Part shown: positions 18,221 through 22,036 of the stretch, in pieces | How the letters are laid out: every line of letters begins with the position of its first letter | How positions within the stretch are numbered: position 1 is the stretch's first letter | NCBI RefSeq assembly: GCF_000013045.1 | Contig: NC_007677.1 | Location: forward strand, 2,108,001-2,172,000 | Direction of reading: 5' to 3' | Source: Salinibacter ruber DSM 13855 | GTDB taxonomy: Bacteria > Bacteroidota > Rhodothermia > Rhodothermales > Salinibacteraceae | Length of the DNA: 64,000 nt | Made by a program: the position numbers and the translations under genes | The notes under the pieces: model-generated | The model's input: the letters and a program-made list of their open reading frames with translations, nothing else | Told to the model about the DNA's origin: nothing | Database searches by the model: none

Positions 18221-18356
18221 AGCGTGAAAGACCCAAGACGAGAAATAGGCGGGGCGCCTTGAAAGTGCGGCCTCCCCTCCTGTTTGCCCCTTTGCCGTTT
18301 CTTCGTAGGAACACTTTGGGGCGTCTCGCGAACACTGTAGTGGCACTTTTACACTT

Positions 18357-18430
18357 GCGCTCGTAGCTCAGTCGGACAGAGCATCGGTTTCCGGTACCGA
18401 AGGCCGGGGGTTCGAATCCTCCCGAGCGCA
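18357..18430 (+). tRNA. tRNA-Arg (anticodon CCG)
   Basis: A 74 nt cloverleaf folds cleanly. The acceptor stem GCGCTCG pairs with CGAGCGC and the discriminator is A18430. The D stem is GCTC/GAGC with a 9 nt loop. The anticodon stem TCGGT/ACCGA encloses TTCCGGT, giving anticodon CCG, which reads Arg CGG. The T arm carries the TTCGAAT loop. No CCA is encoded. It diverges from the CPBP gene. Confidence 0.96.
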
Positions 18431-18454
18431 CATCGTCATAGACAGCTCCCCTCG

Positions 18455-18494
18455 CCGATTTTGGGCCCTGGCGCCCGAGATCGGTTTTCTGTTG
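18455..18494 (+). terminator. Rho-independent terminator of tRNA-Arg
   Basis: CCGAT (18455-18459) pairs with ATCGG (18480-18484), and an inner GGGC/GCCC helix lies inside it. The structure is followed by TTTTCTGTT. It begins 25 nt after the tRNA. Confidence 0.7.
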
Positions 18495-18849
18495 TAGATG
18501 CATTTCTGGCCCACGAAGCCCCAGGTCGGCGTCGCCCTTCGGTTTGGCAACAGTGAAGAGTAACGACTCGCCGTCTCCCGACTGAGGAGATTGGGGAGCG
18601 CATCCAACCCTGTGCCCCCGCGGAGGCGTCGATGGGGGGCGCACCACCACGCCGAGATCGGACGTCACGGCCCCCCCGGTCGTGAGCTCAACAAAATTGG
18701 GGGCTAGATCTGGAAACAAGCTTCGGAAGAAAGCTCAGATCGTTGTGAATTATAACCACCCTATTCGTCGGGTCAAGACTGGCGAATCAGCGGCCAGCGT
18801 CGTTTCCGGCAGGGTTTCTCTCGTCGGCTGCCCCATCAATCACGGTACG
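18495..18849. other. Gene-free stretch between the tRNA-Arg terminator and the accessory gene pair
   Basis: With the terminator, about 420 bp separate the tRNA from the next gene. I see no convincing gene, tandem repeat or copy of the tRNA 3' end in it. The stretch near 18740-18770 is relatively AT-rich for this window (TTGTGAATTATAACC) and could hold the promoter of the following pair. An open frame upstream of ATG 18850 runs in from 18682 but has no recognisable protein pattern. Confidence 0.5.
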
Positions 18850-19203
18850 ATGAGTTCTTGGACTCGCGTTTCATTCGATCCGGGGAAAACCGGGATTGAG
18901 GCGATCACCAACGACCTCCAGAAGGCACTGGAAGATCCGGATACATTCATCCATAACGACATGGTCGTGTGGAAGGCCTTCGACGAGGTCGACGCTCAGC
19001 GCCTGACTGATCTCGGGATTGAGGCGTCTCGGGCCCTCGTCATGCACGTGAGCGACACGTCGAATTCGGGGAGCGGTCGGCTTTACAAACGAATCGACTC
19101 GGAATTTATCCTTCTGGATGCCATGTCGGGCGGTGAGGGCTACTTCGGGCGGGACGTTCTTGCCTACATGCAACGCGAGCACGGGCTCGTGGGGGCGGCC
19201 TAA
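18850..19203 (+). CDS. Conserved-looking protein of unknown function, partner of HEAT-repeat gene
   Basis: Predicted 117 aa soluble protein; I do not recognise a family. It opens WTRVSFDPGKTG, has mixed alpha/beta character and a central segment rich in Asp (HNDMVVWKAFDEVDAQRL), and ends LAYMQREHGLVGAA. No signal peptide or membrane helix is seen. Its stop TAA overlaps the next gene's ATG (TAATG), which implies translational coupling with the HEAT-repeat protein. ATG 18850 is chosen because the 56 codons before it look non-coding. Its place next to a tRNA gene and its unusual content suggest accessory DNA. Confidence 0.72.
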   Translation: MSSWTRVSFDPGKTGIEAITNDLQKALEDPDTFIHNDMVVWKAFDEVDAQRLTDLGIEASRALVMHVSDTSNSGSGRLYKRIDSEFILLDAMSGGEGYFGRDVLAYMQREHGLVGAA

Positions 19204-20915
19204 TGAGCAGACCACTCGTTGACTTTGCCCGGCGACTCCAACCCGATGCCGACGCGACCACCGCCGACGCGGTCGTCGAAACCGCCGCAACGAATCGGCG
19301 GGCCGAGTTCGAATCGGCCCTGTACCGGCTCTTCGCGAACCTTACGGGGGCGTCGGCCCCCTCGGTTCGGCGGCGGAGTGCCCGCGCGGTGTACCAGCTT
19401 TCGGAGATCGTTCCCGGCGCACTCGTGACGTACGGGACGGAATTGATCCCTGCCCTCGACGACGACCCGGCGCGTCCCTACATCGCCGGGAGCCTGACCC
19501 ACATCGTTTACGAAGGCATGCGCGGAGAAACCTTCCGCAGCGACCGGGAGGCCCTCGTCCAGGACCTCGCCCGGCAGATCGGCACCGACACCACCGTTTC
19601 GGCGGTTCGCTATTTGTCGCGGATCGCGACGCGCTGGGACCGAATCGTCGCGACCGTGGAGCCCACCCTCGTCGACGGCCTATCGAGCGAGGACGAGGCC
19701 GTCCGGACCGCGGCCGTCCGGGCGTTCGCGACAATGTGGGCACACCACCTCGACGGAACCGACGCGATTCCGCCCCTGCTCGACTGTACCTGCGACTCGT
19801 CGCCGCTCGTGCGGGCACACGCCATCGCGGCGCTCGGCGACATTGCGTTTCAGGATCGGGGGGAAGAGGACGCCCCCGTCGCGGCCACCCCCGAGATTAT
19901 CGATGCGGGAACGAGGTTGCTCACGGACGACGACGAGCGCGCCCGGTACGACGCCGCTGCGTGTTTTGCCGAGGCGCACTACTGGGTGGAATATGAAGGC
20001 GATCGCTGTTGGATCGAGACCGTCGACCGCAACCGCATCGACGCGGCGGTTGACGCTCTCGTTGAGGCCCTCGACGATCCGTCCACCCCCGTCGTCCGGC
20101 AGGCGGCGGCCGCCCTACACATCTACGCTCGCTTCGAGACGCGGGCCCTCATCCCGCACGTCGACCGCCTCGTCGACTACGGATGGAGCGTGCAGCCCAA
20201 CAGCACGTTGATTCAGCGGGCGCTCAAATCCCTAGCCGCTGACCATCCCTCGGCCCTCAGCGATCACAGCTCCTTCCTCCTCGACCGACTGCGCAACCAT
20301 AAGGACGCAACCGCCGCGACGATTCTGGGGCGGCTTGCCCCCGCCGACGGCGAGGCCGCCCACTCGGCCGTCTCGTCCCTCACCGATCTGCTCGGCAGTC
20401 CCAAGCACACGGACCGTCGGACTGCCGCGAAGGCGCTCGCAGAGGTCCACCGTGTCGACTCGACGCTCGTTCCCGACTACGTCGAGGCCCTCACCGAGGC
20501 CGTCGACGGCACCGACGTGAACACCAAACCGGGAATGGGATGGGAGCCCCTTGCGACTCTGGCCCCGGATCACCCGGAGACCGCGACGGCTCTCGCCTGC
20601 CAGGCGGTTGACCGACTGACAGAGTGGCCCTCTCCGCCTGATTTGCGTCTCGTGTACAAACTCGGTGAAGCCAACCCGCACACGATTTCCCCCGTGGCCG
20701 ACCGACTCATCGATCTGCTCGACCACGACAACACCAGCGTCGTCGGTGCGGCAGCAAAGTCGCTGAGGGGGGCGCTCATGTTGGACGGCTCGGTTCAGAT
20801 CCCCCCGTCCGCCGCTGCCGCCCTCGCATCGCGGCTCGACGACCTCTCCAGATCCGCTCGGATGGACGCGGAGCGAATTATCGACGTGGTCCGGGAAGAA
20901 TCCACGGACGCCTGA
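19203..20915 (+). CDS. HEAT-repeat protein
   Basis: Predicted 570 aa, entirely alpha-helical in appearance, made of repeating units of about 35-40 residues. Examples are VRTAAVRAFATMWAHHL, VRAHAIAALGDIAF, RYDAAACFAEAHYW, VVRQAAAALHIYAR and DRRTAAKALAEVHR, all HEAT-like (Ala/Arg pairs and conserved Asp/Pro turns). No catalytic motif, signal peptide or membrane segment is seen. HEAT arrays usually act as protein- or nucleic-acid-binding scaffolds. It is coupled to the preceding 117 aa gene by a 1 bp overlap. Codon use, with more GTT, TCG and CGA, appears to differ slightly from the neighbours, though I have not counted it. Confidence 0.85.
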   Translation: MSRPLVDFARRLQPDADATTADAVVETAATNRRAEFESALYRLFANLTGASAPSVRRRSARAVYQLSEIVPGALVTYGTELIPALDDDPARPYIAGSLTHIVYEGMRGETFRSDREALVQDLARQIGTDTTVSAVRYLSRIATRWDRIVATVEPTLVDGLSSEDEAVRTAAVRAFATMWAHHLDGTDAIPPLLDCTCDSSPLVRAHAIAALGDIAFQDRGEEDAPVAATPEIIDAGTRLLTDDDERARYDAAACFAEAHYWVEYEGDRCWIETVDRNRIDAAVDALVEALDDPSTPVVRQAAAALHIYARFETRALIPHVDRLVDYGWSVQPNSTLIQRALKSLAADHPSALSDHSSFLLDRLRNHKDATAATILGRLAPADGEAAHSAVSSLTDLLGSPKHTDRRTAAKALAEVHRVDSTLVPDYVEALTEAVDGTDVNTKPGMGWEPLATLAPDHPETATALACQAVDRLTEWPSPPDLRLVYKLGEANPHTISPVADRLIDLLDHDNTSVVGAAAKSLRGALMLDGSVQIPPSAAAALASRLDDLSRSARMDAERIIDVVREESTDA

Positions 20916-20955
20916 GTCCTGGTCCTATTCCCTACAGGAGCGCGGCGGCGCTGGA

Positions 20956-21720
20956 CTACTTCTCGTCCGATGCCCCGATCGACTCCAGCGCCCGCAGGGC
21001 CTCGGTGGGCACCGCGAAGATCACGGTGTTCGAGTCGTCGCTGCTAAGGCTGTTGAGCGTTTGCAGGGTGCGAAGGTGGAGGGCGCCCTCTTCGTCGTTG
21101 AGCGTGCTCGCCGCGTCGGCCATGTTTTGGGCCGCCTCCAGCTCCCCCTCCGCCTGGATGGTGACGGCGCGGCGCTCGCGCTCGGCCTCGGCCTGCCGGG
21201 CAATCACCCGCTTCATGTTCTCCGCCAGGATGATGTCTTTGAGCTCAACCGACTGCACCTCAATGCCCCACGGGTCGGTGGCCTCGTCGATGATCTCGCG
21301 GATCTGCTGGGAGATGCGCTCCCGCTCGGCCAAGAGCGCATCGAGGTCCACCTCCCCGACGATGTTGCGCATGGTGGTCTGGGCCAATTGCTGCGTGGCG
21401 TACATGTACTCCTCCACCTCTAGGATCGCTTTCTCCGCATCCCGCACCTGGTAGTAGATGACGGCGTCGATCTCGACGGTCACGTTGTCGCGCGTGATGC
21501 TCTCCTGCCGCGGCACGTCGACCGCCTTCACGCGCATGTCGACCCGTTCCCACGACTGGATCAGCGGGATGACGGTCCCGAGGCCCGGCTCCATCACCTT
21601 GACGAACTGGCCGAGCATGAACTTGACGCCCCGCTCGTACTCCTTCACGACCTTGAAGGTGCGCACGACGAGGACGACCGCCACCAGAACGACGGCGGCC
21701 AGCAGATAAAACGAGAGCAT
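20956..21720 (-). CDS. SPFH/stomatin-family membrane protein (slipin-like)
   Basis: Predicted 254 aa. One N-terminal membrane helix (FYLLAAVVLVAVVLVV) is followed by the SPFH domain: KEYERGVKFMLGQF, PGLGTVIPLIQSWERVDMR, then RDNVTVEIDAVIYYQV. A coiled region rich in Ala/Glu/Arg follows (AEAERERRAVTIQAEGE). Such proteins oligomerise in membrane microdomains and often partner an NfeD protease-like protein, but no nfeD gene is adjacent here. ATG 21720 gives the anchor directly at the N-terminus. It diverges from the MATE gene across a region with inverted repeats. Confidence 0.92.
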   Translation of the reverse strand: MLSFYLLAAVVLVAVVLVVRTFKVVKEYERGVKFMLGQFVKVMEPGLGTVIPLIQSWERVDMRVKAVDVPRQESITRDNVTVEIDAVIYYQVRDAEKAILEVEEYMYATQQLAQTTMRNIVGEVDLDALLAERERISQQIREIIDEATDPWGIEVQSVELKDIILAENMKRVIARQAEAERERRAVTIQAEGELEAAQNMADAASTLNDEEGALHLRTLQTLNSLSSDDSNTVIFAVPTEALRALESIGASDEK

Positions 21721-22036
21721 GAAATTCGGGGCGCTGGGGAGAGGAGATTGGAATGTGGGTTGCCTACGCCCTCCTCCTCCGATTGATGACGGGAATTTCA
21801 TTCCCCTCACATTCTCAATCGGCGCCCTGAGGCGGAGCGGACCGGGACAGGTAGCGGCCCGCAGGTCAAGAGCACGTGAGGGGAATGGCAGAAATCAGTT
21901 ATTCCTGGGAATGCGTTCCTGCTCCAGCGGGCTCGCCCGAACAACCCCTCGGCTCCGTGAGTGCCTACGTTCACGACACTCTGAGAAAATGGGTGTCGGT
22001 CCCGTCCACGCTGTTGTTCCGCTCCGTTTCGCCTCT
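21721..22036. promoter_or_regulatory. Divergent intergenic region with nested inverted repeats
   Basis: This 316 bp gap lies between the SPFH gene (left, minus) and the MATE gene (right, plus). It contains GGGAAT-TTC-ATTCCC (21791-21805) and a 12 bp perfect inverted repeat: CATTCCCCTCAC at 21799-21810 against GTGAGGGGAATG at 21876-21887. A further GGGAATG lies near 21906. These could be operator sites or a long hairpin. No gene is convincing in the gap. Confidence 0.5.

Follow-up and report, generated by a model that had tools for sequence, protein, structure and literature searches.

A two-gene unit, encoding a 117 aa protein and a 570 aa HEAT-repeat protein, lies within an insert no longer than 2,447 bp, to the right of a tRNA-Arg(CCG) gene in Salinibacter ruber, and was very probably acquired horizontally. 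The window, that is, the whole stretch of 64,000 nucleotides analysed here, covers bases 2,108,001-2,172,000 of the 3,551,823 bp chromosome in a two-contig genome that totals 3,587,328 bp (chromosome plus plasmid). The size limit of the insert follows from alignments to the empty sites of three sister species. Alignment to the closest of these (G010, 92-97% identity) stops at position 18524 and restarts at 20972, while alignments to G003 and G006 stop at 18491 and 18494 and restart at 20973 and 20971, respectively. The insert thus extends at most over 18525..20971, with its right border falling within 20916-20971. At all three empty sites both flanking genes are adjacent, and in G010, 88 bp stand in the place of the insert. 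The conserved right neighbour of the empty site is a slipin/SPFH-type gene (20956..21810, minus strand), named from a reading of its translation.

Besides its two genes, the insert holds a leader of approximately 325 bp. An Rfam search of the insert returned no RNA. On the minus strand of the leader there is a sigma-70-type promoter-like site (18749..18776) that points toward the tRNA and has 11/12 matches, with 0.3 such sites expected by chance; no gene is evident downstream of it. At about 2126.5-2129.0 kb on the chromosome, the insert lies outside the published metagenomic islands of S. ruber, which are located at 249-358, 776-846 and 1360-1403 kb (PMC2800850).

Acquisition, as originally predicted, is well supported by three observations, namely that three sister species have an empty site, that the pair is absent from all congeners, and that the HEAT gene is atypical in its codon use. 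Absence by itself cannot separate gain from loss, and the two genes might in principle be ancestral and have been lost in all relatives. However, the genes would then have had to disappear from 12 congeners and another 28 relatives, and the codon use of the HEAT gene is atypical, which makes loss a very improbable account. Codon use was compared as a likelihood ratio over synonymous codons between 38 S. ruber genes of the window and a haloarchaeal set of 26 genes, all from one species of Halomontanus. The HEAT gene has a log-likelihood ratio of -0.019, as compared with 0.091 +/- 0.035 for the S. ruber genes (lowest of the 38, -0.014) and -0.102 +/- 0.050 for the Halomontanus genes, and hence falls between both distributions. 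Its share of CTC+GTC codons, set against CTG and GTG, is 0.74, as compared with 0.48 +/- 0.09, the highest of the 38 window genes (Fisher p 7e-6). The comparison thus set the HEAT gene apart but was uninformative for the small gene, whose 7 CTC/GTC versus 6 CTG/GTG codons are too few for a donor signal.

A haloarchaeal source, also put forward in the original prediction, fared less clearly. The codon bias is consistent with it, and among plasmids the HEAT protein gave a single match, to a HEAT protein of haloarchaea (31% identity, E 0.09), but the searches found no close donor. In a pairwise comparison, which carries no database-size penalty, the E value of this Halomontanus match is 6e-7 and that of a Natrinema relative 3e-5, although such a match is no proof of descent because HEAT arrays resemble one another. 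A haloarchaeal donor is no more than plausible. We also observed HEAT proteins of haloarchaeal plasmids in conflict-type neighbourhoods (L086 4092-5882 and L087 2316-5792): the gene of one shares a single base with a VWA gene in a helicase/VWA cluster, and the other is situated near Piwi and tyrosyl-DNA phosphodiesterase genes.

The tRNA-Arg(CCG) gene (18357..18431, plus strand; found by ARAGORN, Rfam tRNA 67.8 bits) is the left landmark of the insert and is kept in each of the 13 Salinibacter genomes. It had been suggested to be the integration site, and this suggestion found no support. The tRNA is followed by a terminator-like hairpin (18454..18485, plus strand), and the insert begins beyond this hairpin, 94 bp past the tRNA. 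Moreover, we found no integrase, recombinase or IS in the insert, which contains two coding genes only, and of the repeats in 18300-21100 none copies the tRNA 3' end at the far border; the closest tRNA-like repeat in this interval is a 14-nt, 86% match within the HEAT gene. Since the insert lies past the terminator and has neither integrase or IS nor a repeat of the tRNA end, attachment at the tRNA is not supported.

The same flank carries varied loads across the genus. To the left of tRNA-Arg, CPBP and CdsA-type genes (names again from reading translations) are present in all genus genomes, whereas the right side differs among them. In G011 it spans 6.1 kb and includes genes for an IS110 transposase and an S9 peptidase. 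In G009 (L052 572-12718; G009:C4 530571-542717) it contains DarT, a 1400 aa Eco57I/DrmMI/type IIG-like methylase, an MkoA-like helicase-nuclease and a DrmD-like SNF2 helicase, a run that reads as a DISARM-like or composite defence cluster. In G012 (L053 8230-17949; G012:C49) and G001 (L054 8104-17825; G001:C27), an SbcC-like gene stands beside the tRNA together with a gene for a 1607-1608 aa DUF4011/MTES_1575/DUF3320 protein that matches PADLOC PDC-S37 (1972-1979 bits) and is a candidate defence protein; in L053, a 385 aa ORF between these two genes reads like SbcD. Other genes occupy the site in G007 and G008, and those of G007 include one for a type II secretion protein. Recognised defence genes are thus found on the tRNA-Arg flank of three congeners (G009, G001 and G012) and ordinary genes on that of other congeners, and because G001 and G012 nearly share their content, the three represent about two independent defence-type occupations.

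The small gene (18850..19203, plus strand) runs from an ATG at 18850 to a TAA at 19201-19203, and by its codon statistics it is coding rather than a chance reading frame. Indeed, its codon score was reached by 0 of 5000 dinucleotide shuffles, only 364 of which were even stop-free, and its frame is the best of six for local codon usage. The gap between tRNA-Arg(CCG) and its ATG is 418 bp, and not 420 bp as given in the original prediction, which had otherwise placed the gene correctly after the tRNA. A longer reading from a GTG at 18682 would add 168 bp upstream, but GC by codon position is flat there (0.52/0.50/0.57), and the absence of a coding pattern makes the ATG at 18850 the likelier start.

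The 117 aa protein is without known relatives. As had been noted from the sequence, it has no recognisable family, and we found none in Pfam, NCBIfam, PADLOC or PHROGs. There was no homologue in the 12 congeners and 28 further relatives, nor in viral contigs, phages, plasmids or a 394-genome sample of the phylum, and matches to plasmids at E 10 were chance matches only. A search of genome contigs, in which haloarchaeal chromosomes were scanned with exact 8-residue peptides only, returned nothing for either protein. FeoA-like matches in four genomes, all from a single genus within the order, were judged to be due to chance; these cover 39 residues inside a 76 aa gene, read as FeoA from its translation and followed by a second such gene. 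In the PDB, the N-terminus of the protein resembles designed alphaRep HEAT proteins (E 0.005) over a stretch too short to call, and its AlphaFold model (pLDDT 40) is unusable.

The HEAT gene (19203..20915, plus strand; ATG at 19203-19205) encodes an alpha-solenoid protein with a Pfam HEAT_2 match in five stretches (E 8.8e-21; 74.4 bits against a curated cut-off of 27.7). A single-sequence AlphaFold2 model is all helix with a mean pLDDT of 61.6 (moderate confidence), and Foldseek relates it generically to importin, transportin, AP and PP2A solenoids. None of the libraries searched revealed a catalytic domain, and the protein therefore most likely binds something; we infer that it is a non-catalytic binding scaffold. 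Paralogues in its own genome give local matches only, and there was no homologue in the 12 congeners, 28 further relatives, viral contigs or phages. The sole other match in the 394-genome phylum sample (G135) proved to be an unrelated protein of 532 aa. The two products of the unit are both acidic (pI 4.66 for the 117 aa and 4.82 for the 570 aa protein), as expected in an extreme halophile.

The small ORF and the HEAT gene share one base, 19203, in a TAATG overlap; the coordinates and the HEAT_2 match both bear out the predicted 1-bp overlap with a 570 aa HEAT gene. Overlapping stop and start codons suggest translational coupling and thus, probably, linked function. The further claim that the pair acts together has this overlap as its sole basis, and it is set against a 117 aa protein that is without a homologue in the collections searched. 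The original prediction had named the lack of such a homologue as an outcome that would count against it, and our check for conserved pairing found no homologue of the small gene.

Taking these data together, we tentatively read the insert as a two-gene accessory cassette of approximately 2.4 kb that was gained after the split from the sister species. The cassette would have entered the lineage at the variable site just to the right of tRNA-Arg(CCG), probably from a haloarchaeon or some other organism whose codons are biased toward CTC/GTC. Its two genes would be co-translated, and the small protein would be the partner of the HEAT protein, as a ligand or an effector; the solenoid may sense or hold this partner, which would either carry an activity or be kept in check. 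By location and analogy, the most likely role would be that of a conflict- or defence-type accessory unit. Defence is the leading guess by location only, which is weak evidence, because three congeners carry defence genes on the tRNA flank. Going further, to a new defence unit of hypersaline microbes that is composed of a HEAT-solenoid sensor and an unrelated small effector, has travelled between haloarchaea and bacteria and resides in a Salinibacter defence-gene site, is unlikely to be right. Searches of Pfam, NCBIfam, PADLOC and PHROGs recovered no domain of a known toxin, nuclease or immunity type in the insert, and they recognised no core gene of any described anti-phage system apart from a weak, repeat-driven match to OloA.

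An acquired cassette could also serve regulation or assembly, as a taxis, surface or enzyme-maturation scaffold, with no relation to conflict. HEAT arrays are generic binding scaffolds, and the solenoids found by Foldseek are equally generic. A HEAT_PBS protein is found within the Halobacterium taxis cluster, and cyanobacterial HEAT proteins act as phycobilin lyases. The insert has no taxis, surface or enzyme gene, however, and nothing ties it to a pathway, so that we consider such a role possible but rather unlikely. Adjacent, overlapping genes would also suit a toxin-immunity pair, in which the small protein is the toxin and the HEAT protein an immunity partner of the Imm-HEAT type, and HEAT-repeat immunity proteins have been described in polymorphic toxin systems (PMC3482391). 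Against this, the insert contains no toxin or trafficking domain and no secretion locus, and the 117 aa protein belongs to no family, which makes a toxin-immunity pair quite improbable. Alternatively, a chance integration may have brought the pair in as neutral cargo, in which case the small ORF could be a real gene whose product has no contact with the HEAT protein. That neither a homologue of the small protein nor a conserved partner was found in the collections searched would fit neutral cargo, but both frames are intact, their codon statistics are those of coding sequence, and their overlap suggests translational coupling; we therefore doubt it.

The locus is a clean case in which an extreme halophile gained a two-gene cassette, and the three empty sites serve as its control. 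Because the tRNA-Arg(CCG) flank holds varied accessory loads across the genus, it could serve to harvest accessory systems of halophiles. If the pair were related to defence, it would represent a new kind of HEAT-based unit. Our literature search found no paper naming both Salinibacter ruber and HEAT repeat.

Among known arrangements, the insert resembles tRNA-adjacent genomic islands in that accessory genes stand beside a tRNA and vary among sister species, but it differs from them in having neither an integrase nor a duplicated tRNA end and in lying beyond the tRNA terminator. The array in the 570 aa protein is of the kind collected in the HEAT families PF13646 (HEAT_2) and PF02985. An acidic HEAT array is shared with WP_276256410 of Halomontanus rarus (~31% identity over 39% of length), although that protein is 385 aa long and is encoded alone beside ABC-transporter genes, with no small partner. 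As with the Imm-HEAT immunity proteins (PMC3482391), a HEAT protein is encoded beside a gene that could be its target, yet the insert has no toxin domain or export machinery. The HEAT protein resembles OloA of the Olokun defence system (PADLOC PDLC03925) weakly and locally (E 1.9e-5, 22 bits), but the match covers only 67/596 profile positions in the repeat region, and OloB has no match in the insert. On present evidence, an accessory insert that combines an orphan small gene with a HEAT gene is a new instance of a common situation and not a new kind of system.
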